The notes under the pieces are model-generated. The model was not told the origin of the DNA. It did no database searches and saw only the letters and a list, made by a program, of their open reading frames with translations. 52,450 nucleotides of DNA from Chloroflexota bacterium (GTDB lineage Bacteria > Chloroflexota > UBA11872): contig JAPOXD010000043.1 of the NCBI GenBank assembly GCA_026707285.1, positions 1-52,450 on the forward strand. Reading direction: 5' to 3'. The stretch's first letter is position 1, and each line of letters starts with the position of its first letter. The translations under genes and the position numbers were made by a program. Shown here in pieces: positions 22,211 to 52,450 of the stretch.

Positions 22211-23266
22211 ATGTTTGGTCCGTTCAACACGCTTCTCGGGCTCTTCTCGCGCGACCTCGGCATCGACCTGGGCACGGCGAACACCCTGGTTTATGTGAAA
22301 GACCGGGGCGTCGTGCTCTCCGAGCCGTCGGTGGTCGCGACCGACCAAAACACGATGCGCGTGCTGGCCGTGGGCGCCGAGGCGAAGAAGATGGTGGGCC
22401 GCACGCCGTCCAACATCACCGCCATGCGACCGCTGCGCGACGGCGTGATCGCCGATTTCGACACCGTGGAGACCATGCTGCAGTACTTCATCAGCCGCGT
22501 GCACGACGAACTGCCGTTCGCCCCGCGTCCCCGCGTGATCGTCGGCGTGCCCTCCGGCGTCACCGAGGTTGAGAAGCGCGCGGTCCACGAGGCGAGCCTG
22601 CAGGCCGGCGCCCGCGAGGTCTACCTGATCGAGGAGCCAATGGCTGCCGCCATCGGCGCCGGGCAACCGATTCAGGAGGCCACGGGCAACATGATCGTGG
22701 ACATCGGCGGCGGCACGACCGAGGTCGCCGTGATCTCGCTGGGAGGCGTGGTGGTGAGCCACAGCATTCGCGTGGCGGGCGACGAGATCGACGAGCAGAT
22801 CGTGGAGTACTGCCGCAACGAGCACATGCTGCTCATCGGCGAGCGCACGGCGGAGGCCTGCAAGATGGCCGTCGGATCGGCCTACGCCGGTTTGCAGGAA
22901 GACACCGTGCTTGTCCGCGGCCGTGACTTGCAGAGTGGCCTGCCGCGCCAGGCCGAGCTGACCTCCGGGCACATCCGCGAGGCGATTGGCGGACCGGTGA
23001 CCGAAATCGTGGACAACGTGAAGCTCGCCATCGAGGCCACGCCCCCCGAACTGCTGGCCGACATCATGGAGCACGGCATCTATCTCGCCGGAGGCGGCGC
23101 CTTGCTGCGAAATCTGGACAAGCGCATCGAGCAGGAAGCCGACATCCCCGTGCATGTGTCGGAAAACCCGCTGGAAGCGGTGGTGCGGGGGACGGGGGCG
23201 TGCCTGCACAACCTCGAGGCCTACCGCGAGGTCTTCGTCGCCGAAAACAGATCGCCCTACGCCTAG
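22211..23266 (+). CDS. mreB: Rod-shape actin homologue MreB
   Basis: A 351-residue actin-fold protein that forms membrane-associated filaments guiding lateral wall synthesis. The ATP-binding motifs are present: DLGTANTLVYVKDRG (phosphate 1), IVDIGGGTTEVAVISLGG (phosphate 2) and YLAGGGALLRNLD (adenosine). It starts MFGPFNTLLGLFSRDLG, with a short amphipathic N-terminus. Length is normal. It is the first gene of mreB-mreC-mreD-mrdA-rodA, so the cell is probably rod-shaped or at least builds peptidoglycan. Confidence 0.96.
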   Translation: MFGPFNTLLGLFSRDLGIDLGTANTLVYVKDRGVVLSEPSVVATDQNTMRVLAVGAEAKKMVGRTPSNITAMRPLRDGVIADFDTVETMLQYFISRVHDELPFAPRPRVIVGVPSGVTEVEKRAVHEASLQAGAREVYLIEEPMAAAIGAGQPIQEATGNMIVDIGGGTTEVAVISLGGVVVSHSIRVAGDEIDEQIVEYCRNEHMLLIGERTAEACKMAVGSAYAGLQEDTVLVRGRDLQSGLPRQAELTSGHIREAIGGPVTEIVDNVKLAIEATPPELLADIMEHGIYLAGGGALLRNLDKRIEQEADIPVHVSENPLEAVVRGTGACLHNLEAYREVFVAENRSPYA

Positions 23267-24674: not shown

Positions 24675-26627
24675 ATGGCGGCGAACAGCGGGCCGAGCGA
24701 TCAATCGGCGGCGGGGGCGCCTGGAACCAAGAGCGACGGCGGCGCGAGCGCCAATCGCAAGCTCAGGCGCGGCCTGATCCTCGGTGGCGCGGTGGTGGCG
24801 GCCAACGCGGCTCTGGCGGGACGGCTCTGGCAGCTCCAGGTCGTGGAAACCGAGACCTACCAGGAACAAGCGGCGCGGAATCGCCTGCGCACCGAACCGG
24901 TGCGGCCGGTCCGCGGTCTGGTGTTCGACCGCAACCGCGAGCCGTTGGTGCGCAACGTCCCCGTGTTCGGCGTGTGGGTCACACCGGCCGACGTGCCCAA
25001 GTCTCGCGAAGGCTCAATCATCGCCAGCCTGGCCGCCCTCACGGGCGAGCAACCCGACGATGTGCGCCTCAAATTGTCGCAGGCCCGCTACGATCCGGGA
25101 CGCCCGGTGCAGGTGGCGGCGGACGTGCAGCGGGACTCGGCGCTGGCGATCGAAGAGCGACGCCACGACCTGCCGGGCGTGCAGGTTCGTTCCGGGATTC
25201 GTCGGCACTATCTCCACGGCGACGTCTTTGGGCACATGCTGGGATTCGTCGGGCCCGTTCCGGCCGAGTCGCTGGAGGAGTACCAGGCGCTTGGCGTGGG
25301 CTTCGACGAAACCGTTGGGCTGGCGGGCCTGGAACGCCAATTCCAGGGGGCGCTGCGCGGCGCCGACGGCTCGCGCAGAGTCCAGATCGACGCGCTGGGG
25401 CGCGAGCTGAACGAAATCGAATCCGAAGCGCCGGTCGAGGGACGACACCTCGTGCTGACGGTTTCCGTTCGCGAGCAGAGGGCCATCCGCGAGATTCTGG
25501 CGCGGCATCTGGCCCTCCGAGACTCCGGCGCCGGGGTCGCCGTCGTCATTCGACCGGAGGACGGATCGATCGTGGCGCTGGCCAGCCTGCCGGACTACGA
25601 CAACAACGCCTTCGGAGTGGGCGGAGATCCCAGCGTGCTGACGCGGCTGGTCACCGATCCGCGCCGCCCCCTCATCAACCACGCGGTGGCCGGCCTCTAT
25701 CCGCCCGGCTCCAGCTACAAGGTCATTGCGGCCTCAGCGGCGCTCGAGACGGGGATCGTCTTGCCGCAAACCAAGATCCGGTGCGACGGACAGTTGGTGC
25801 TGCCGACCGGCTGGGCCTTCAACGACTGGCTGGCGACCGGCCACGGCATGGTCGACCTGCACCGGGGCATTTCGGAGTCGTGCAACATCTACTTCTACAA
25901 CATCTCCGGCGGCAACCCGTATACCAATCTCACCGGATTCGGCAACCGCCGGCTGGTGGAGTTCGAGCGAGGGTTTGGGTTCGGCGAAGTCAGCGGGATT
26001 GACCTTCCCGGCGAGGCGGCCGGCCTTGTGCCAACCGCCGAATGGAAGCAGGGCAACCTGGGACAGCCCTGGGTGACGGGCGACACCTACCACGCGGCCA
26101 TCGGCCAGGGGCTGGTGCAGGTCACGCCGCTGCAGATCGCCATGATGTATGCAGCCTTGGGCAACGGCGGGCGCCTGCTGCGCCCGCGCCTGGTGGACCG
26201 CATCGTGGACTCGCAGGGCAACGTGCTCCAGCGCTTTCCCATCAGCGAACGGGGGCAATTGCCCGTCTCGGACGAGCACCTGCGCCTGATCCGCAATGCG
26301 CTCTTGGAGGCCGTCAACGGTCGCAATGGCACCGGCAAGTGGGCCCGCTCCGAATTCGCCGTCGTGGCCGGAAAAACCGGCACCGCCGAATACAGCGGTA
26401 CGCGGGACTCCCAGGGCAAGCTCCCGAGCCATGCGTGGTTTGCAGGCTACGCCCCGGCGGGCAACCCCGAATACGCGTTCGCCGTCCTGGTTCGCGACGG
26501 CGGCGAGGGCGCATTTGCGGCCGCGCCGATCGCGCGGGACATCATCGACTACTTGATGACGGGTGAAATGCCGCCGCTGCCCCAGGACCGTCCGGATTTC
26601 ATCCCGCCAACCCGGCGGCTGGCATGA
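24675..26627 (+). CDS. mrdA: Penicillin-binding protein 2 (peptidoglycan transpeptidase)
   Basis: A 650-residue class B PBP that cross-links lateral-wall peptidoglycan. A short cytoplasmic N-terminus is followed by one membrane helix (GLILGGAVVAANAALAGRLW). The dimerisation region has RTEPVRPVRGLVFDRNREPLVRN. The transpeptidase domain has SSYK (346-349, active Ser), SCN (402-404) and KTG (567-569), all intact. The N-terminal tail (MAANSGPSDQSAAGAPGTK) is Ser/Gly/Ala-rich. Its stop overlaps the rodA ATG. Confidence 0.95.
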   Translation: MAANSGPSDQSAAGAPGTKSDGGASANRKLRRGLILGGAVVAANAALAGRLWQLQVVETETYQEQAARNRLRTEPVRPVRGLVFDRNREPLVRNVPVFGVWVTPADVPKSREGSIIASLAALTGEQPDDVRLKLSQARYDPGRPVQVAADVQRDSALAIEERRHDLPGVQVRSGIRRHYLHGDVFGHMLGFVGPVPAESLEEYQALGVGFDETVGLAGLERQFQGALRGADGSRRVQIDALGRELNEIESEAPVEGRHLVLTVSVREQRAIREILARHLALRDSGAGVAVVIRPEDGSIVALASLPDYDNNAFGVGGDPSVLTRLVTDPRRPLINHAVAGLYPPGSSYKVIAASAALETGIVLPQTKIRCDGQLVLPTGWAFNDWLATGHGMVDLHRGISESCNIYFYNISGGNPYTNLTGFGNRRLVEFERGFGFGEVSGIDLPGEAAGLVPTAEWKQGNLGQPWVTGDTYHAAIGQGLVQVTPLQIAMMYAALGNGGRLLRPRLVDRIVDSQGNVLQRFPISERGQLPVSDEHLRLIRNALLEAVNGRNGTGKWARSEFAVVAGKTGTAEYSGTRDSQGKLPSHAWFAGYAPAGNPEYAFAVLVRDGGEGAFAAAPIARDIIDYLMTGEMPPLPQDRPDFIPPTRRLA

Positions 26628-27790
26628 CCCAGGTCCTGCGGCGCTTCGATCTCGCCGTCATCATCCCCTCGATCGCGTTGGTTTCGGCGGGGATCCTCAT
26701 GCTCTCCACGACCGGCGATCCGGGCCAAACGGGCCTGGACCACAAGGCGGTGCAGCAGGGCGTATTCGTGGCCATCGGTTTCGCCGTCGCCCTGGTGATG
26801 GCCTTCCTCGACTATCGGCTGCTCAATGCCGTGGCGCTGCCGGCATTCATTCTCGGGACGATCCTGGTTGCCGCGGTCGTGGTCTTTGGCGACGCCAGCC
26901 TGGGCGCCCAACGCTGGTTCGTGGTGGGGCCCATCGTGATTCAGCCGTCCGAAATCATGAAGCTCGCCGTCATCATCTTTCTGGCGCGGTTCTTGGCGCG
27001 GCGCGGCGAACGCGTCCGTTCCATTCGGACGCTGCTGCTGAGCTTGCTCATCGTGCTGGCGCCCGCGGCCCTGGTGTTCATCGAGCCGGACCTGGGCTCG
27101 GCGTTGGTATTCGTGGCGATTTGGTTGGCGATGGTATTCGTCGCCGGCGCGCGCTGGTGGCACGCGCTGATTCCGGCGGGGATAGCCTTGGCCGCCTTCC
27201 CCTTCGGCTGGTTCTTTGCGCAGGACTACATGCGCGAGCGCTTCGTCGCGTTCCTCGACCCCGGGAGCGATCCGCTTGGCGCCGGCTATAACGTGCTGCA
27301 GGCCCGGATTTCGATTGGCTCGGGCGGCTGGTGGGGGCAAGGCATTGGCCAGGGCACGCAGTCGCAGCTCGAGTTCCTGCGCGTCCGCGACACGGACTTC
27401 ATCTTCGCCGTGCTGGGCGAGCAGCTGGGCTTCGTCGGCGCCCTGGGCGTCATCTTGTTCTTCGCCATCCTGCTCATCCAGGCCGTGGTCATCTCCATTC
27501 GCGCGCGCGACGATTTTGGCCGCTACCTCGCCATCGGCATTGCGGGCATGCTGTTCTTCCAATCGTTCGTCAACATCGGCATGAACGTGGGGCTGATGCC
27601 GGTGACCGGCATCACGCTTCCGCTGCTCAGCTTTGGCCGCAACTCGCTCGTGGTCACGCTGGCCGCCATCGGCATCCTGCTCAGCATCAATGCGCATCGA
27701 ACGTCGGCCCCGCATCGGCAGCAGGGCGTCTGGTGGGTGTCGAGCGTCAGGCGGCTGACGGCCGGCCCCGGGGCTTCGCCGCGGCCGTGA
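26624..27790 (+). CDS. rodA: Peptidoglycan glycosyltransferase RodA
   Basis: A 388-residue SEDS-family polytopic membrane protein that polymerises lipid II together with PBP2. Hallmarks are AQRWFVVGPIVIQPSEIMKLA, the extracellular loop GYNVLQARISIGSGGWWGQGIGQGTQSQLEFLRVRDTDFIFAVLGEQLGF with the conserved catalytic Asp region, and TGITLPLLSFGRNSLVVTLAAIG; the usual PL(I/L)SYGGSS is LLSFGRNSL here. It begins ATGA-coupled to mrdA and its own stop overlaps thrB (GTGA). Confidence 0.94.
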   Translation: MTQVLRRFDLAVIIPSIALVSAGILMLSTTGDPGQTGLDHKAVQQGVFVAIGFAVALVMAFLDYRLLNAVALPAFILGTILVAAVVVFGDASLGAQRWFVVGPIVIQPSEIMKLAVIIFLARFLARRGERVRSIRTLLLSLLIVLAPAALVFIEPDLGSALVFVAIWLAMVFVAGARWWHALIPAGIALAAFPFGWFFAQDYMRERFVAFLDPGSDPLGAGYNVLQARISIGSGGWWGQGIGQGTQSQLEFLRVRDTDFIFAVLGEQLGFVGALGVILFFAILLIQAVVISIRARDDFGRYLAIGIAGMLFFQSFVNIGMNVGLMPVTGITLPLLSFGRNSLVVTLAAIGILLSINAHRTSAPHRQQGVWWVSSVRRLTAGPGASPRP

Positions 27791-45099: not shown

Positions 45100-45724
45100 G
45101 GCCGGCGGCTGGGGCGTAGATGGGCCGTGCCACTCCCACGCCAACGATCGATGGATCGCGCTCGCCCGCCAGGCGGCCGAGGGCTTGTGCGACCTCAACG
45201 GGCTGGATGGGTCGCAGCCGCATTCCGGCAGCGCGGATTCCCTCCGCCGTGTCGTCGTCGACGTCACCGGCCACGGTCACGCCCGCTCCAAGCTGTGCCG
45301 CAAGCTCGGGCGGGCCGATGGCGGGACCAAGCGGTGCGCTCCGCCCACAGGTCCAGAAATAGACGCGGCCACGGCCGGCCGGAATGACGATCGGCCCGAC
45401 GTGTCCGCCGGCGGCGCGAGCCACGGCTGCCGCGGACCGCACGCCGACGAACGGCACGCCCAGTCCGGTCGCCAGGCCCTTGGCAAACGCCACGCCGGCA
45501 CGCAGTCGCGCATAGCGTCCCGGCCCCATGGCCGCGGCGACCGTGCTCAGGCGCCCACGCAATTCCCGCAAGGGCAGATTCTGGCCCGCTTGCATGGCGC
45601 GCAGGCCGCTGATGAGCGGCGTCCGCGCGGTGTCGCCCTGCCACGACGCCAGCACCTCGTCATCGTGCAGCACCGCCATGGCGGGCGCGGAGCCTGTGGT
45701 GTCCATCGCGAGTACCATCGTCAT
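45092..45724 (-). CDS. tsaB: tRNA threonylcarbamoyladenosine complex subunit TsaB
   Basis: A 210-residue TsaD paralogue without catalysis, which scaffolds the t6A complex. VLAMDTTGSAPAMAVLHDDEVLASW is the N-terminal ASKHA motif, and VAAAMGPGRYARLRAGVAFAKGLATGLGVPFVGV is the TsaB core. Note Ala-Met in AMGPGRYARLR where VxxGPGSFTGLR is usual (Ser-Phe-Thr-Gly is Arg-Tyr-Ala-Arg). ATG overlaps the tsaE stop (ATGA). Confidence 0.9.
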   Translation of the reverse strand: MTMVLAMDTTGSAPAMAVLHDDEVLASWQGDTARTPLISGLRAMQAGQNLPLRELRGRLSTVAAAMGPGRYARLRAGVAFAKGLATGLGVPFVGVRSAAAVARAAGGHVGPIVIPAGRGRVYFWTCGRSAPLGPAIGPPELAAQLGAGVTVAGDVDDDTAEGIRAAGMRLRPIQPVEVAQALGRLAGERDPSIVGVGVARPIYAPAAGHG

Positions 45725-46227
45725 CGCGCCGCCATACGTGCTCCCACGGCCGCGAGGAGTTCCCGACTGCGAGGTCCGCCGGCTGAAAGCGTGATCGTAC
45801 GCCGGTTCGTCGACTCCGCCTGGATCGCCACGAGCAAGCAGTCGTCGGGCATTCGCTCACCGGCTCGTTCGGACCACTCGACCGCCGTGACCGCCGGTTC
45901 GTCGAGCAGGTCCTCCCAGTCGATCGAATCCAAGTCGAGCGCGCCCGCCAGGCGGTAGAGATCAACATGCTGCAGCCGCAACCGGCCCGACCCATAGACC
46001 GACACGAGCACGTAGGTCGGCGACGTCACGCCCTCCTCGACGCCAAGCCCCTGGGCAATGCCCTGGGCGACCACGGTCTTGCCCGCACCCAGCTCGCCCT
46101 GGAGCGCGACGAGGTCCCCCGGCCGCGCCCACCGACCTATGGCAGCGCCGACGGCCCGCGTAGCGTCGGGCCCGTCGGACACGATTTGGGTGTGGGCAAG
46201 CGTACGGAACGTCAATGCGCGCTCCAC
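45721..46227 (-). CDS. tsaE: tRNA threonylcarbamoyladenosine complex ATPase TsaE
   Basis: A 168-residue P-loop ATPase. Walker A is GELGAGKT (44-51), followed by TSPTYVLVSVYGSGRLRLQHVDLYRL, the typical HxDLYR motif, and VTAVEWSERAG (WxE/EW). It starts at GTG (VERALTFRTL). It cycles TsaB–TsaD turnover. It is the first gene of the minus-strand tsaE-tsaB-rimI-tsaD set, and its start lies only 14 bases from the divergent glycosyltransferase GTG. Confidence 0.93.
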   Translation of the reverse strand: MERALTFRTLAHTQIVSDGPDATRAVGAAIGRWARPGDLVALQGELGAGKTVVAQGIAQGLGVEEGVTSPTYVLVSVYGSGRLRLQHVDLYRLAGALDLDSIDWEDLLDEPAVTAVEWSERAGERMPDDCLLVAIQAESTNRRTITLSAGGPRSRELLAAVGARMAAR

Positions 46228-46241
46228 GAAAGGCGGCGGCG

Positions 46242-47444
46242 GTGAGCCTGCGCGTCGCCATGATTGCGCCGACGGGCTTCTTCGCGGACTACGGGTGTCA
46301 CGTTCGGATCCTGGAGGAAGCCCACGCGCTCCAAGCGCTGGGCCACGCCGTCACAATTTTTACCTATCCGACCGGCACAACGCCGGACGGACTGCGCGTG
46401 GTGCGACTTCCGGCATTTCGCCGCCACTCGGGCGCACACGTCGGCTCGCACCGGCGCAAGCTGCTGCTGGACCCGCTGCTGGCTGGGTTGGTGCTCGCTC
46501 GCAGCCTGCGTCAACCCATCGACGTGGTGCACGGCCACCTGCACGAAGGCGCCGCAATTGGCTGGCCGCTGGCGCGCGCTCGTCGCGTGCCGCTGATCCT
46601 GGACTATCAGGGAAGCCTGACCAGCGAGATGGTCGACCATCGATTCCTCTTGCCGGACGGCCCCGGCGTACAGATATTCGGGGGGGTCGAGCGCGTAATC
46701 GAGGCCGTGGCCGACTGCATCGTCACGAGTTCGGCGTTTGCCCGGGACCAGCTTGCCGCGCGCAAGTCGTGGTCGGCGGGACGGATACTCGCCGTTCCCG
46801 ACGGCGTTGACGTCGGGCGGTTTCGACCTCGAGCTCCGCAAGATGCCCCCGACCTCGCCGCCCTGCGACAGCAACTCGGCATTCCACCGAGCCGGCTGGT
46901 GGTCGGCTACCTGGGCCTGCTCGCGGAGTACCAGGGGACCGGCGACCTCATCCGCGCCGCGCGCCTGGTAGTCGACGCCGAGCCGGGAACGCACTTCCTG
47001 ATCATGGGCTATCCCAACGCCGCGGAATACGAGCAGGCGGCCAGGCAGGCGGGGCTGGCCGAGCACGTCACGTTCACGGGCCGAATCCCCTATGCCCAGG
47101 CCCCGGCGCACCTGCGGCTCTGCGACCTGGCCGTCGCGCCAAAGCGGTCGGAGACGGAGGGCAACGGCAAGGTGCTCAACTACATGGCCACCGGACTGCC
47201 GACCGTGGCCTACGCGCGCGGAGTGGCCGCCGAGTTCCTGGGACCGGACGCCCGGCTGGCCGAGCGAGGGTCGGTGTCGGCGCTCGCCGGTGAGATCCTG
47301 CGCCTGGTGCGAGACGCCGATACGCGCCGGACCTACGGCGAGAACCTGCGGGCGCGCGCCGAGCAAGAGTTCTCGTGGCAGCGACAGGTGGGCAGGATTC
47401 TCGACGTCTATGCCTCTGTTGGCGCGGAAGCGCGGCACGACTGA
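46242..47444 (+). CDS. Family 4 glycosyltransferase (GT-B)
   Basis: About 400 residues from GTG at 46242; an ATG at 46215 would overlap the tsaE start. The N-terminus is RVAMIAPTGFFADYGCHVRILEEAHALQALGH, and the C-terminal donor domain has VVGYLGLLAEYQGTGDLIRAARLV and APKRSETEGNGKVLNYMATGLPTVAY. The second Glu of the E-x7-E motif is Asn, as in the EGNGKxLNYMA subgroup. Two frames give an alternative first segment but this one is continuous. The sugar donor and acceptor are unknown; the gene leads a MraY-like/kinase/MurF cluster, so an envelope lipid or polymer acceptor is likely. Confidence 0.85.
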   Translation: MSLRVAMIAPTGFFADYGCHVRILEEAHALQALGHAVTIFTYPTGTTPDGLRVVRLPAFRRHSGAHVGSHRRKLLLDPLLAGLVLARSLRQPIDVVHGHLHEGAAIGWPLARARRVPLILDYQGSLTSEMVDHRFLLPDGPGVQIFGGVERVIEAVADCIVTSSAFARDQLAARKSWSAGRILAVPDGVDVGRFRPRAPQDAPDLAALRQQLGIPPSRLVVGYLGLLAEYQGTGDLIRAARLVVDAEPGTHFLIMGYPNAAEYEQAARQAGLAEHVTFTGRIPYAQAPAHLRLCDLAVAPKRSETEGNGKVLNYMATGLPTVAYARGVAAEFLGPDARLAERGSVSALAGEILRLVRDADTRRTYGENLRARAEQEFSWQRQVGRILDVYASVGAEARHD

Positions 47445-48864
47445 TTGCTACCGTGAGCCTGACGCCCGCCACACGTCGGAGGGTCGCATAGAGCCTGGGT
47501 TGGCGATCGGCCTGGCGGCCGGCTTCGCCTTCGTCATTGCCGCGGGGGGCTCTGCCGCGCTTCGACGTTGGTTGCCCCACTTTCGCTCGGCCGAGGTCAA
47601 GCGCGGGGCGCACCAAATCGCCACACCGCTTGGCGTGTCCGGCAAGCTGCCGCTCGTGGGCGGCATTGCCGCCGCCGTCGCGGCGGTCGTCGCCGCGGCG
47701 CTGTTGTCGGCAGGCCCGGCCGCTTCCAGCGCCTGGTGGGTGCTGGTCGGTGCCGTCGGGTTCTTTCTCTTCGGGCTCGCCGACGACCTGCGCAAGACGC
47801 GCACCGGGCGAGGCGTGCCCGAGGGCGCCTATCTTGTCATCGCTCTCCTACTCAGCGTCGGCGCGACGGCGCTCCTGGTAGGCCCCGGCGCCCACGCGTC
47901 CGGCTCGGCATCGCCCTACGCCCTGGCGCACTGGCTGGGATCGGGAGCGCACGTGCCGCTGAGCGTCTGGTACCTGGCGCTGATCCTCGGGACGACGCTG
48001 GCGACCAGCTTCAGCGACGGCATGGACGGGCTCACGCCGGGCACGGTGACCATCGCGACGGCCGGCGCCGCGCTCGCGGCCGGGCTTGCCGCCGGCGTCA
48101 GCCACGCCGGTTGGCCGCTCGGCGTCGCGGCCATTGCCGCCGGGCTCCTGGTGTGGAATCTGCCTTCGGAGTGGTCCCCGGCCAATCGCGGCGCCAAGCG
48201 CCGGGCGAGCATCTACATCGGCGATAGCGGCGCCCTGATGCTCGGGGCGGCCTCGGCGGCCGCGGCAATCGTGGCGGGCGTGGACCTGCTGTGGCCGCTG
48301 ATCGCGGCGCCCCTGCTGCTGGAAGGCCTTTCGTCGCTGGTGCAAGCCAAGATCCTGGTGCCGCTGTACCGACGCTGGCGCGATCCACGGCTGCCGGACG
48401 GGACGCCGGTTCCACATCAGCAATTCCCGCTGCCGCTGCTGGCGTCACCGCTGCATTACCACTGGGAAATCGTCGGCCTGAACCGGCAGAAGATCGTGCT
48501 GGGCTTTTGGGCCGGCACGGCCGCGACCGCGGCCCTGTGCGTCATCGCGGCTGCCATGCTTGAATCGGCGTGGGCGGCGCTGGCGATTGCCCTCGCCGCG
48601 GCGGTGGGCGCGGCGTTCTGGGGCGCCGCCACGTGGACCCGTCCGGCATTCGTCGCCGCCGACGGAGACTTCCTGCTGCTGTATCACGGCCGGCCCATCA
48701 AGTTCCTCGGATGGCTGTTGGCGCGACGGCGACGCGTAGTGGGCGACGCGGAGGCGGTTCGGGCGGCTGCGGACCGGGGTCTTCTCGACCGACCCATGAA
48801 CGCCCACGTGCTCGACGCGACCCTCGACGAGTTGCTGCCCGACGCGAAACGGCCGGGGACGTGA
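47410..48864 (+). CDS. MraY-like phospho-sugar transferase with C-terminal extension
   Basis: About 484 residues from ATG 47410, which overlaps the preceding gene by 35 bases; TTG 47500 is a shorter alternative, with GGAGGG (47478-47483) too far upstream. It is a polyprenyl-phosphate phosphosugar transferase with about ten membrane segments. Asp pair FGLADDLRK (125-126), SFSDGMDGLTPG (NxTDGxDGL with Ser for Asn), IYIGDSGALMLG and PLHYHWEIVGLNRQKIVLGFW (HHHxE-like MraY motif, middle His to Tyr) are present. About 100 extra residues follow the usual MraY end. Proximity to MurF suggests it may be the organism's MraY, but that needs comparison. Confidence 0.8.
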   Translation: MPLLARKRGTTDCYREPDARHTSEGRIEPGLAIGLAAGFAFVIAAGGSAALRRWLPHFRSAEVKRGAHQIATPLGVSGKLPLVGGIAAAVAAVVAAALLSAGPAASSAWWVLVGAVGFFLFGLADDLRKTRTGRGVPEGAYLVIALLLSVGATALLVGPGAHASGSASPYALAHWLGSGAHVPLSVWYLALILGTTLATSFSDGMDGLTPGTVTIATAGAALAAGLAAGVSHAGWPLGVAAIAAGLLVWNLPSEWSPANRGAKRRASIYIGDSGALMLGAASAAAAIVAGVDLLWPLIAAPLLLEGLSSLVQAKILVPLYRRWRDPRLPDGTPVPHQQFPLPLLASPLHYHWEIVGLNRQKIVLGFWAGTAATAALCVIAAAMLESAWAALAIALAAAVGAAFWGAATWTRPAFVAADGDFLLLYHGRPIKFLGWLLARRRRVVGDAEAVRAAADRGLLDRPMNAHVLDATLDELLPDAKRPGT

Positions 48865-49937
48865 GTACGTCTGGCGTGAACGAAGACCTGCGCGCCGGAG
48901 TGAGCGCAATCCTGGCGGCGAGCGGCCAGCCGGGGCCGTGGTCCTGGCATGCCGTCGCCGCCGATGCGCGGCATGGAATCTGGCGCCTTCGCTCCGGCCC
49001 GGCGTCGCTGATCGTCAAGGTGTATCGGCCGCAAGTCGACCGGTACTACCACCATCGCTGGCGGCGCGAGGAGCGGGCGTTGGACCTGCTGAGCCGCCAG
49101 GCGCCAGGATTGGCGCCCGAGCCACATGGGGCTCTGCTGGCGCCCGACGCCTTTGCCGCCGTGGCCATGGAAGACCTCGGATCCGAGTGCCTGGCCGACC
49201 GGCTCGAAAGGGCGGACTCGGACGAGCGCGCCGCATTACTCGCATGTGCCGTCGAGACGCTGGCCGCATTCCGCGATGTGGCATCGCGTCACCAGGCCAT
49301 GCTGCGGGCCCTGGCGTACCAGAGCGATCTGGACCGCATCACGCGCGACACCTTGCGCCGACGCCTCGCCATTGCCGCGGCGCGGCTTCGCGATCCAGCG
49401 ACCACGCCCGAGCCTGACGCCGCGCCGCGTGCCGTAGCGCCGCGACTCCCATGGCGAGACCTGGAAGCCGGCATCGTCGGACCGATAGTCCGCGCGCCGC
49501 GGCGGGTGGTGCACAACGGCTTCTCGCCGCTCAACCTGATGCCGCGTCCCGACGGACGGCTGGCCCTGATCGATTGGGAGACCCTGGCAGTGGCCGCCCC
49601 GGCACTGGACGCGGCCGACCTGCTCACGTTTCCGAGTCTCGCTCTCTCCTCAGACGCCATCGAGGACCAGGCGGCTCGGCTCGCCGCTGAATCCGAGACC
49701 GCCGGAACAATCCAGGTGTTTTGGGCCGCGGCCGCCGAGCGCAGCTTGACCTACGCCGCCACCGCCGCCGTGCGCGAGCGCCGCGCACAGGCAGCATCGC
49801 AATCCGACCGGGCATCGACCTATGCCGCTCGACGTCAGTGGTATCTCCGCGTCTTCGACGAGGCCCTGGAGCGCCTGCAGCTCGACTCAGGCGCGCGCCG
49901 TCGCATCCGCGACGCGTTGGACGGACTCAACGGCTGA
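48861..49937 (+). CDS. APH-fold kinase-like protein, possible pseudokinase
   Basis: A 358-residue protein from GTG overlapping the preceding stop (GTGA). The C-lobe pattern VVHNGFSPLNLMPRPDGRLALIDWE matches the phosphotransferase (APH/choline kinase) fold. The usual catalytic HGDxxxxN is H218-N219-G220-F-S-P-L-N225, so the catalytic Asp is absent, while the metal-binding Asp238 of LIDWE is kept. The N-lobe has GIWRLRSGPASLIVKVYRP with a likely ATP-binding lysine. It sits between the MraY-like gene and murF, implying a role in envelope-precursor handling, perhaps regulatory. Function unproven. Confidence 0.6.
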   Translation: MSTSGVNEDLRAGVSAILAASGQPGPWSWHAVAADARHGIWRLRSGPASLIVKVYRPQVDRYYHHRWRREERALDLLSRQAPGLAPEPHGALLAPDAFAAVAMEDLGSECLADRLERADSDERAALLACAVETLAAFRDVASRHQAMLRALAYQSDLDRITRDTLRRRLAIAAARLRDPATTPEPDAAPRAVAPRLPWRDLEAGIVGPIVRAPRRVVHNGFSPLNLMPRPDGRLALIDWETLAVAAPALDAADLLTFPSLALSSDAIEDQAARLAAESETAGTIQVFWAAAAERSLTYAATAAVRERRAQAASQSDRASTYAARRQWYLRVFDEALERLQLDSGARRRIRDALDGLNG

Positions 49938-51349
49938 TGTTCACCCTGGCGGACGTGGCCATCGCCGCCGAGCAGCCGGTTCCAGGCGGCGCCGAAGACC
50001 TCGTCATGACCGCCGCGCACTTCGACAGCCGGCGCATCCAGCCGGGCATGTTGTTCGTGGCGCTGCCCGGCGCGCGCGTCGACGGCCACGACTTCATCGG
50101 CAGCGCCTTCGCCCACGGCGCCGCGGCGGTGCTGTGCGCCAGGCACGACCCGGATCAACCCATTGAGCGTCAGGTCATTGCCGCGGCGCCGCAGGCCGCG
50201 TTCGAGCGCCTGGCGGGCAGGCTGCGCTCGCGTTCGTCGGCGACGTTCGTGGGCGTCACGGGCAGCAACGGCAAGACCACCACCAAGGAAGCCCTGGCGG
50301 CGGCCCTGGGCGCCGCCGGCTCCACTCTCGCTACCGATCGCAGCGAGAATGCCGAGGTGGGCGTGCCGGCCACCCTGTCGCGGTTGGCGCCCACGCACCG
50401 CTACGCGGTTGTCGAAATCGGCGCCCAGGTCGTGGGCGAAATCGCCCGCTACTGCGGCTACGCGAAGCCCGATGTCGGCGTCATCACCTCCATTGCAGGC
50501 GCGCACCTGGGGTTGTTCGGCTCGATAGAGGCCGTTGCCACGGCCAAGGGCAAGCTTTTCGAGGCCCTCCCGGAAAACGGGCCGGCCATCGTGAACGCCG
50601 ACGACCCCTGGACCGAGGCCCTGCGGCGTCGCGCACGAGGGCCGGTGGTGTCGTTCGGCCGGTCGGACGCGGCGGACGTGCGGGTAGGCGGCGAACTGCT
50701 GGCCGATCCGCCGGGCACCCGCGTGCGCATCACGGCTGGCAGCTTCACCGGCAGCGTTGACGTTCCCGGCACGGCGGGCGCCATCGATCTTGCGTTCGGC
50801 GCCGCGATCGCGACGACCCAGGCGCTCGGGGTGGATCCCGCCACGGCCTGCCACGGGTTGCGCGACTTTCGACCCGCGCCGCACCGACTGCGGCTCCAGG
50901 CGCTGCCGGGCGGCGGCCTGCTGCTCGACGACACCTACAACGCGAACGCATCCTCCATGAAGGTCGCTCTGGACACGCTGCGAGCCGTATCTATCCCTGG
51001 GCGCCGGATCGCCGTGCTAGGCGATATGTTCGAGTTGGGAGACTTTGCCCCGGCCGCCCATCAGCAGGTGGGACGGGATGCCGCCGGCGCCGATCGGTTG
51101 CTCTGCGTCGGCGCGCTGGCCGCCGAAATTGCTTCGGGCGCTCGCGTGGCTGGCCTGCAAGCCGTGGACTTGATTCCCGCGGATACGGAGGACTCCGCGT
51201 CGATCGCCGGGGCCGTGGACGCGGCGGCGGCATGGCTGCGCCAGGAGCTGGCAGCCGGCGACGCAGTGCTGCTGAAAGCCAGCAACGGCATGGGCTTCGC
51301 CCGCCTGGCAGACGCGGCTACGGAAGCCCCGCAGCTCTCCGCCGGCTGA
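49937..51349 (+). CDS. murF: UDP-MurNAc-tripeptide–D-Ala-D-Ala ligase MurF
   Basis: A 470-residue Mur ligase adding the D-Ala-D-Ala dipeptide to the peptidoglycan precursor. ATG shares one base with the upstream stop (TGATG). N-terminal DSRRIQPGMLFVALPGARVDGHDF, ATP loop GVTGSNGKTTTKEAL (106-120), AVVEIGAQVVGEIARYC (MurF normally has EMG/EMGm here), ITSIAGAHLGLFGS, and DDTYNANASSMKVAL are in order. It follows an APH-like gene and a MraY-like gene and is convergent with the last gene of the window. Confidence 0.93.
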   Translation: MFTLADVAIAAEQPVPGGAEDLVMTAAHFDSRRIQPGMLFVALPGARVDGHDFIGSAFAHGAAAVLCARHDPDQPIERQVIAAAPQAAFERLAGRLRSRSSATFVGVTGSNGKTTTKEALAAALGAAGSTLATDRSENAEVGVPATLSRLAPTHRYAVVEIGAQVVGEIARYCGYAKPDVGVITSIAGAHLGLFGSIEAVATAKGKLFEALPENGPAIVNADDPWTEALRRRARGPVVSFGRSDAADVRVGGELLADPPGTRVRITAGSFTGSVDVPGTAGAIDLAFGAAIATTQALGVDPATACHGLRDFRPAPHRLRLQALPGGGLLLDDTYNANASSMKVALDTLRAVSIPGRRIAVLGDMFELGDFAPAAHQQVGRDAAGADRLLCVGALAAEIASGARVAGLQAVDLIPADTEDSASIAGAVDAAAAWLRQELAAGDAVLLKASNGMGFARLADAATEAPQLSAG

Positions 51350-51350
51350 T

Positions 51351-52283
51351 TCAGCCCCCGGCGCGTTTGGCCTTGCGCGCCTCTTCGCGAGCCTGCTCGG
51401 CGCGGTAGTTCGAGATCCAGTTCATGGAAAACTCGTCGCGGCCGCGGATCAGGTTGGCGGCCAGCACCGCGTGGCGAATCTCCTTGTGGGTCATATCCAG
51501 GATCGCCGCAGTCAACCCGGCCTCCATCGCCGTCAGCAGAGTCGCCGCGTTGAGGGAACGTCGGGCCGGCAATCCGAATGACACGTTGCTCAGCCCGATG
51601 GACATATTCAGGTCGTCCTCGCGGTGCAGCGTGCGAATCGCGCCTAGCAAACCCGGCCCAAAGACATCGTTGGCCCCCACCGGCAAGCACACCGGGTCAA
51701 TGACGATCCGGTCGGCGCTAATGTCGTGCTCGGCGGCGCTGGCCACCAGCGCGCGCGCGTTCTCGACCCGTTCCTCCACCGTCTCCGGCATGGCGGCGCC
51801 GCCCTTGGTGCACATGCCGATCATGCAGGCATCGTGCTCGGCAATCGCCGGGAGCAACTCGTCCATGTAGTCCGCCTCGAACGGGACGGAGTTCACCAGC
51901 GGGCGTCCGCGCGCGACCTCGAGCCCGACCAGCAGCACGTCGATGGTGTAGGAGTCAATCGACACGGGCACGTCCACAACGTCCTGCACCGCCCGCACGG
52001 CGTCGCGCATCTTGCGCGCCTCGATCTCGTGGTGCGGGTCGCCCGTGTTGACGTCGATCACCGTCGCGCCTGCCGCGACCTGCCGCGTGGCGTCGCGCTG
52101 GACGTAAGCCCAGTTCCCTTCGTCGTATGCGCGCTGAAGCCGCGGCTTGTTGGTCGGGTTCAGGCGCTCGCCGATGGGCACGAAGGCCTCATCCGGGCTG
52201 ATCACCACTTCAAGGCCGTCACGGCCACGGAGCACCGTACGCACGAAACCTCGACTGACGACGTGGGCGCGGCGCCCTGGCAT
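51351..52283 (-). CDS. Pterin-binding (DHPS-fold) methyltransferase-domain protein
   Basis: About 310 residues from ATG 52283 (start uncertain; the frame is open upstream and no ribosome-binding site is clear; several GTG codons lie just downstream). It has VPIGERLNPTNKPRLQ, AAGATVIDVNTGDP, VPVSIDSYTIDVL, ADRIVIDPVCLP and MSIGLSNVSFGLPARRSLN, the pattern of the AcsE/MetH/MtgA methyltetrahydrofolate-binding barrel. It would move a methyl between tetrahydrofolate and a corrinoid protein. The N-loop Asn of LSNVSFG is present. No corrinoid protein or reductive activator is in the window, so pathway is unknown. Confidence 0.82.
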   Translation of the reverse strand: MPGRRAHVVSRGFVRTVLRGRDGLEVVISPDEAFVPIGERLNPTNKPRLQRAYDEGNWAYVQRDATRQVAAGATVIDVNTGDPHHEIEARKMRDAVRAVQDVVDVPVSIDSYTIDVLLVGLEVARGRPLVNSVPFEADYMDELLPAIAEHDACMIGMCTKGGAAMPETVEERVENARALVASAAEHDISADRIVIDPVCLPVGANDVFGPGLLGAIRTLHREDDLNMSIGLSNVSFGLPARRSLNAATLLTAMEAGLTAAILDMTHKEIRHAVLAANLIRGRDEFSMNWISNYRAEQAREEARKAKRAGG

Positions 52284-52450
52284 GAGGCGTGCGCAAAGGA
52301 GTGGTTGAGCATACGAACGGCGCGGCAGCCTGGCAATGCGTCCAGGACTTTGTATGCCTGGTTCTACAGATTCGTCATTCCCGCGGAGGAGCGATGGTGG
52401 ATTCACATTTCAAGTGCAACGGTTGATCCCAGAAGACCTCGGCTGGGGTT
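52284..52450. other. Upstream noncoding segment at window end
   Basis: No gene is seen in these 167 bases. They presumably hold the promoter of the minus-strand methyltransferase-domain gene. TTCGTCATTCCCGCGG (52371-52386) resembles one half of a common dispersed element (…CGCGGGAATGACGAA on the other strand). The adjacent neighbour is beyond the window. Confidence 0.5.

Follow-up and report, generated by a model that had tools for sequence, protein, structure and literature searches.

A putative relocated lipid I module with a long MraY variant and an APH-fold pseudokinase in Chloroflexota

A 52,450-nucleotide stretch of a Chloroflexota genome (assembly GCA_026707285.1, contig JAPOXD010000043.1, positions 1 to 52,450; hereafter the window) carries four adjacent genes that encode a family 4 glycosyltransferase (GT4), an MraY-like transferase with an extended C-terminus (long MraY), an APH-fold protein and MurF. 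The wall step that MraY carries out is essential, and the enzyme, a target of antibiotics, is commonly regarded as a single conserved type. On the evidence of sequence and gene context, long MraY very probably takes the place of canonical MraY in lipid I synthesis, and it is probable, with less assurance, that the unit as a whole is a relocated lipid I module in which long MraY is joined by an APH-fold adaptor or regulator. The MraY itself is a larger surprise than what the initial annotation of this locus saw.

Results

A four-gene unit in a genome with no canonical mraY found

The unit proved to be as the initial annotation had described it, with four near-overlapping plus-strand open reading frames in the order GT4, MraY-like, APH-fold and MurF (Table 1). 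The reading frames of the long mraY and the APH-fold gene share 4 bases, those of the APH-fold gene and murF share 1 base, and Pfam supports a GT4, a PF00953 protein, an APH-fold protein and a Mur ligase, while NCBIfam identifies MurF. The GT4 scores above the cut-offs of PF00534 (80.9 bits) and PF13439 (51.6 bits) and reaches the cut-off of no NCBIfam function model; it belongs to the unit by position. The MraY-like protein is a member of the PNPT superfamily (PF00953, 48 bits against a cut-off of 27), and its start codon is uncertain, being either the ATA at 47488, which aligns to the ATG of relative G016, or the TTG at 47500 (handles beginning with G, C, L and f denote genomes, contigs, loci and families of this study).

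The window's own genome (3.2 Mb, 61 contigs, 97% complete) contains two PF00953 matches, namely the window gene and a 345-residue WecA/TagO-like gene on contig C30 that scores 94.7 bits with the WecA model and 95.1 bits with the archaeal MraY model, both under the cut-off. No canonical mraY was found in this genome; the best TIGR00445 (mraY) hits, with 66-67 bits, fall on these two genes again. That the genome might be one without murein genes is ruled out by its Mur ligases and by a division and cell wall (dcw)-type cluster on contig C9. MurB, MurC, MurD, MurE and MurF all score above their NCBIfam cut-offs, PF08245 gives seven matches of which six are above the cut-off, and MurG (203 of 250 bits), FtsW (313 of 337.5) and MurT (202 of 800) fall under theirs. 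The C9 cluster carries ftsI-like, ftsW, murG, murC and murB genes, together with mraZ-, rsmH-, ftsA- and ftsZ-like genes identified from sequence reading only, and mraY, murD, murE and murF are absent from the 19 kb taken around it. The initial annotation had named a second, canonical mraY beside murD or murG as evidence against a rearranged lipid I step; none was found in this genome.

Long and canonical MraY exclude each other along family lines

The distribution of the two types was surveyed in 400 Chloroflexota genomes using a profile of the long type (E 1e-35) and TIGR00445 (E 1e-45). Long MraY was detected in 78 genomes and canonical MraY in 269, both types together in none and neither in 53. 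The long type occurs in eight families (f1, f2, f4, f6, f14, f21, f36 and f39), no family has matches to both types, and the window's class is divided between f1, f2 and f4 with the long type and f3 and f5 with the canonical one. MurG is present in 75 of the 78 long-MraY genomes, including all 37 of those with a completeness of 90% or more and a contamination of 5% or less. Among 15 loci fetched from long-type families outside the window's class, the long mraY lies directly after murE in 10; these are 10 of the 11 loci in f21 and f39, and the arrangement is found in none of the four loci in f14, f36 and f6, one of which is cut by a contig end.

Several side observations were made in this survey. 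Five genomes of genus g30 in f21 (G061, G151, G286, G322 and G328) have two copies of long mraY, and the second copy of G286 (L173) is the one f21/f39 locus in which the gene is not beside murE. Genomes of f21 reach 13.7 Mb, and the family looks like Ktedonobacteraceae. A gene for a xylose-isomerase-like TIM barrel lies near long mraY in all five f4 loci (L080, L081, L083, L084 and L085), and one is also found inside the f2 operon of L055 (12137-12985). Among the 53 genomes with neither type, two of family f12 (1.4-1.5 Mb) have no TIGR00445 match at all; these two may be wall-less, and the others may be incomplete or may have a further type.

Long MraY is a clade of its own with loop insertions and an extra C-terminal domain

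In an unrooted tree of 56 sequences (27 long, 13 canonical and 16 TagO-like), each type formed a single clade, with support of 99/97 for the long, 100/100 for the canonical and 100/99 for the TagO-like sequences, and the stem lengths of the three clades were 0.66, 1.08 and about 1.0. Profile comparison gave scores of 254.7 for long against canonical, 193.0 for long against TagO and 258.6 for canonical against TagO. Since the long profile scores higher against MraY than against TagO, the long type is by this measure closer to MraY, yet forms its own clade. A search of PDB sequences with the window protein also returned MraY first (E 1.7e-8), and its score with the archaeal MraY-like model NF053644 was 42 bits, the cut-off being 450.

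The catalytic motifs of MraY are DDxxK, DGxDGL, GDxG and HHH. Long MraY retains DDxxK, DGxDGL and GDSG, the first two as judged on alignments rather than in all 27 sequences, and H-x-H is kept in 27 of 27, six of which read P-M/L-H-H/C-H. In the window protein the middle His of HHH is Tyr, the outer His are retained, and neither Asn of NxxNxxD is present. We considered whether this Tyr marks the presence of a pseudokinase partner and rejected the idea, because family f2 carries the APH-fold protein together with HHH. Compared with canonical Chloroflexota MraY in an alignment, the long form is distinguished by a PxFxSxxxK motif in its N-terminal region, and it is enlarged at two internal places. 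The spacing from N-x-P to GDSG is 9 residues in the 12 canonical sequences measured; of 26 long ones, 24 have a spacing of 20-23 and the remaining two have 14 and 15. The spacing from GD to PLHxH is 76-78 in the 21 measured of the 27 long sequences and 56-63 in 13 canonical ones. The extra C-terminus that the initial annotation had reported is also real; 138 residues lie from PLHYH to the C-terminus of the window protein, compared to 37-61 in the 13 canonical Chloroflexota MraY.

The AlphaFold2 model of long MraY (predicted local distance difference test [pLDDT] 80.2, predicted template modelling score 0.84) has eleven long helices followed by three strands and two helices, with residues 361-383 forming a helix and residues 386-449 the three strands and two helices. 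Foldseek with this model returned MraY structures first (6oyh, E 1.8e-10) and then human DPAGT1. In MraY ten helices span the membrane and both termini lie on the outer side, and the eleventh helix would therefore put the C-terminal tail of long MraY on the cytosolic side.

The APH-fold protein has lost its catalytic base

The APH-fold protein matches PF01636 with 46.3 bits (cut-off 23.2) and no NCBIfam family at 0.01, and PDB sequence searches with it gave weak kinase-class matches only. Its AlphaFold2 model (pLDDT 89.5) matches LicA and APH structures. The best structural match is 3csv (Z 25.3, root-mean-square deviation 3.4 over 304 residues), the next has a Z of 21.6, and N-acetylhexosamine 1-kinase is among the matches with a Z of 19.2. 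As the initial annotation had noticed, the catalytic Asp is missing, the window's loop reading HNGFSPLN. We aligned 24 sequences of the protein, 22 of which cover the catalytic motif and two of which are cut by contig ends; at the catalytic-base position (Brenner Asp) 16 of the 22 have Gly and 6 have Ser, so that the HxD of an active kinase occurs in none. Lys55 and Glu72 are invariant in all 24 sequences, and His220, Asn227 and the metal-site Asp240 in the 22, which indicates that nucleotide- and metal-site residues have been kept. Judged from these sequences, the protein can no longer work as an ordinary phosphotransferase. The median ratio of nonsynonymous to synonymous substitution rates (dN/dS) over 15 genus pairs was 0.21 for the APH-fold gene, 0.145 for GT4, 0.154 for long mraY and 0.174 for murF; the APH-fold gene is under purifying selection, the weakest of the four genes.

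The APH-fold gene is a conserved neighbour of long mraY

Conservation of gene order, which the initial annotation had proposed to check, was examined in 61 genomes, comprising the window's own and 60 relatives. A search for the APH-fold protein at E 0.001 matched 28 of the 61, with 24 long matches (the window's included) and four short stretches of 49-63 residues. Neighbourhoods were then scanned with the window proteins and profiles. In the window's taxonomic order, which consists of families f1 and f2 and 24 genomes, long mraY adjoins the APH-fold gene on one strand in 23 genomes, and this adjacency extends into the second family, where identity of the APH-fold protein is 28-40%. The possibility that the order is not conserved is ruled out by this result. 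In a genome of another family (G053) the pair of long mraY and the APH-fold gene is also present. Across the 400 phylum genomes, a profile of the APH-fold protein at E 1e-10 matched 24, namely 23 of the window's order and G053, and a contig scan using the profile gave 19 loci, every one titled Chloroflexota.

Downstream of the APH-fold gene there is a same-strand MurF-type gene in all 21 genomes whose contig continues. It is the next gene in 19 of them and lies about 3 kb away in G020 and G023. The gap in G020 holds two genes, one for an alanine racemase whose Mur half is eroded and one that is xylose-isomerase-like; the spacing in G023 is the same. In L058 and L059 of family f2 the APH-fold gene is followed by a MurF-alanine racemase (MurF-Alr) fusion. 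Such fusions were seen in the f2 operon at L055:9982-12072, L058:9625-12144 and L059:9678-12182, and in the fusion of L055 the racemase half is intact and the Mur half has no Pfam match. Upstream of long mraY a GT4 gene was found in 18 of the 20 testable genomes of the order, the contigs of the other four ending too early; in G009 (L045:4762-8020) GT4 and long mraY are about 3.3 kb apart.

Borders of the unit and other genes of the window and genome

The unit is bordered on both sides by minus-strand genes (Table 1). A homologue of the tsaE-like gene adjoins the unit in most relatives whose sequence reaches there, and a homologue of the pterin-binding methyltransferase-like gene comes after murF in family f1 loci. 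Elsewhere in the window there are genes of the rod-shape type, an mreB-like gene at 22211-23266 (from sequence reading) and an FtsW/RodA-family gene at 26624-27790 (PF01098). On contig C41 of the same genome (L063:8968-11099), a MurT-like ligase gene is followed by a gene for a GatD-like amidotransferase (PF07685), a pair that suggests lipid II amidation; PMC11915815, in the portion available, gives Thermobaculum terrenum as its Chloroflexota case of MurT.

Table 1. Positions in the window of the four genes, their distinguishing parts and the bordering genes
Feature	Coordinates	Strand	Basis
tsaE-like flanking gene, divergent, conserved left border	45721..46227	-	named by sequence reading
GT4-family glycosyltransferase, first gene of the unit	46242..47444	+	PF00534, PF13439; alternative ATG start 46215
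long MraY, proposed lipid I synthase	about 47488..48864	+	PF00953; Foldseek best match MraY 6oyh
enlarged loop from N-x-P to GDSG, long MraY	48157..48225	+	motif-distance measurement
insertion of about 20 residues before P-L-H-Y-H, long MraY	48352..48462	+	motif-distance measurement
predicted eleventh helix and C-terminal domain, missing in canonical MraY	48568..48861	+	AlphaFold2 model, alignment
APH-fold pseudokinase	48861..49937	+	PF01636, AlphaFold2 model
degenerate catalytic loop HNGFSPLN, Asp to Gly	49512..49535	+	alignment
murF	49937..51349	+	TIGR01143, 338.4 bits (cut-off 288.6)
pterin-binding methyltransferase-like flanking gene, right border in family f1	51351..52406	-	sequence reading

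Discussion

Our confidence that long MraY is the lipid I synthase of these bacteria is high, because it is the sole MraY candidate in a nearly complete genome with MurB to MurF and MurG, because the long and canonical types exclude each other in a phylum sample where nearly all long-MraY genomes keep MurG, because long mraY has murE as neighbour in f21 and f39 and murF or murF-alr in the window's order, and because DDxxK, DGxDGL, GDSG and H-x-H are retained and MraY is its best fold match. In the mechanism that we propose, MurF would complete UDP-MurNAc-pentapeptide and long MraY would transfer phospho-MurNAc-pentapeptide to undecaprenyl phosphate, replacing the canonical enzyme. The APH-fold protein would bind a ligand or partner and would link or gate MurF and MraY. 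There is about an even chance, from what its sequence and neighbours suggest, that it binds a ligand without catalysing a reaction and acts as an adaptor or regulator between MurF, which is soluble, and the membrane-bound long MraY, to whose extra, presumably cytosolic C-terminal domain it may dock. The rearranged lipid I step of the initial annotation is supported, to the extent that sequence can tell, by the failure to find a canonical mraY, the conserved gene order and a dcw-type cluster devoid of mraY, murD, murE and murF, while its regulation by the pseudokinase is something that we infer.

Several observations weigh against this assignment of long MraY. The window protein scores 69 bits with TIGR00445 and misses the cut-off of 192, for which reason we filed it as an MraY variant outside that family. 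By branch length the long clade is nearly as distant from canonical MraY as TagO is, there is no Asn in the seven residues before SDG (the NxxNxxD site) in any of the 25 pattern-matched long sequences of 27, and the mutual exclusion of the two types tracks family lines and therefore represents few independent events. Loss of the Asn pair was considered as a unique property of long MraY and rejected, since the canonical MraY of G026 in family f3 (L088:308-1231) also lacks both Asn, so that the loss extends beyond the long clade. The initial annotation had also raised a separate glycan pathway that borrowed the neighbourhood of MurF. If the MraY-like protein and GT4 started another lipid-linked glycan, lipid I would have to come from the TagO/WecA-like enzyme or from an mraY missing in the assembly, and both the missed TIGR00445 cut-off, with a TagO-like score that is about alike (66.8 vs 69 bits), and the frequent GT4 upstream are consistent with such a pathway. 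However, the TagO-like genes group with TagO-like genes from genomes in which canonical MraY is present too (L179-L182, L189-L191), no canonical mraY was found in any of the 78 long-MraY genomes, 37 of which are of better quality, and murE, murF and murF-alr are among the neighbours of long mraY. Together with the MraY-type P-x-H-x-H, the higher profile score against MraY and the presence of the remaining murein ligases and MurG in a genome with one MraY candidate, these findings make a separate glycan pathway very improbable.

The part assigned to the APH-fold protein in the proposed module has its own points against it. Genome G016, of the window's order, has GT4, long mraY and murF directly in line with no APH-fold gene, which speaks against a strict need for it, and a profile of the protein at E 1e-5 gave no match in 21 loci around the long mraY of f4, f6, f14, f21, f36 and f39. 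The latter result also speaks against the C-terminal tail of MraY having arisen as a docking site for the APH-fold protein, because long-type families without this protein at the locus possess the tail too. Both results, the highest dN/dS of the four genes and the association of kinase-fold spore proteins with glycosyltransferases in other bacteria (PMC2860764) would fit a co-transcribed passenger that serves GT4 or some other process beside a lipid I-forming long MraY. We regard such a passenger as unlikely, because the constant neighbour of the APH-fold gene is long mraY, in G053 as well as in the window's order, and not GT4, and because the genes overlap. The absence of GT4 at the locus in G015 and G019 counts against a passenger of GT4 and also against a fixed four-gene module, and neither GT4 nor MurF profile matches were found in the 18 kb taken around the G053 pair. 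That the protein remains an enzyme, one whose active site has been rebuilt to act on some sugar, lipid or nucleotide in wall synthesis, would explain the five invariant site residues and agrees with N-acetylhexosamine 1-kinase being among the fold matches; we hold it to be improbable, since Gly or Ser occupies the catalytic base wherever the motif is covered and loss of this Asp is taken to identify pseudokinases within this class of folds (PMC2860764).

In a wider reading, which we offer tentatively and hold to be somewhat doubtful as a whole, a third clade of polyprenyl-phosphate transferases may have become the lipid I synthase in several families of Chloroflexota, with Ktedonobacteria probably among them, and in one order may work with a dedicated APH-fold pseudokinase that senses a nucleotide or UDP-MurNAc precursor and gates or channels the hand-over from MurF to MraY. 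Should lipid I indeed be the product of the long type, its sequences would reveal where the active site and the nucleotide loop of MraY tolerate change, and if f21 is Ktedonobacteria, its cultured members offer a test of long MraY. With a pseudokinase fixed between mraY and murF, murein synthesis would have a control or channelling element of a new kind. A survey of Dehalococcoidia called MraY by TIGR00445 (PMC10608941, in the portion available), and lineages with the long type would therefore score as lacking mraY in surveys of this kind.

Comparison with known systems

The literature search, with most subscription papers outside its reach, returned no description of the long MraY clade or of a pseudokinase partnership. 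The long type shares with canonical MraY (TIGR00445; 4j72, 6oyh, 9zno) the PF00953 domain, the best fold match, DDxxK, DGxDGL, GDxG and P-x-H-x-H, and neighbouring mur ligase genes, and has no canonical MraY in the same genome. It differs by scoring far under the cut-off, by its own clade, two loop insertions, lost Asn residues and an added eleventh predicted helix with a C-terminal domain, and by lying outside the dcw-type cluster. WecA/TagO-like transferases share the superfamily and a similar TIGR00445 score; they form a separate clade, the P-x-H-x-H pattern matched none of 16 TagO-like sequences, and a TagO-like gene is found alongside either type of MraY.

The APH and small-molecule kinases (3csv, LicA and N-acetylhexosamine 1-kinase) have the fold in common with the window protein at about 11-18% identity and differ in that the window protein lacks the catalytic Asp. 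AmgK, an anomeric MurNAc kinase, has a catalytic HGD loop and MurU as a neighbour, whereas the loop of the APH-fold protein reads HNG, HNS or HGS. The archaeal pseudomurein MraY-like proteins (NF053644; PMC11915815) are a second MraY-like type beside mur ligases in another lineage; in the available portion of that paper the main archaeal group is reported as confined to archaea, and another group has 62 bacterial homologues. Bacterial spore kinases (YtaA/CotI, CotS and YutH; PMC2860764) are described, in the part of the paper at hand, as having an APH/choline-kinase-type fold with repeated loss of the same Asp, and pseudokinases of this fold class occur there in spore coats, some associated with glycosyltransferases. 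They differ in being spore coat proteins of Firmicutes, for which that part of the paper gives no link to mraY or murF. Association of Mur enzymes with MraY has been reported in other systems, and a complex that holds MurF near MraY is an idea common to MurG or MurE-MurF scaffolding (PMC6420597, in the portion available) and to the unit described here; there the scaffold is MurG or a fusion protein, whereas here a kinase-fold protein is proposed for this role.

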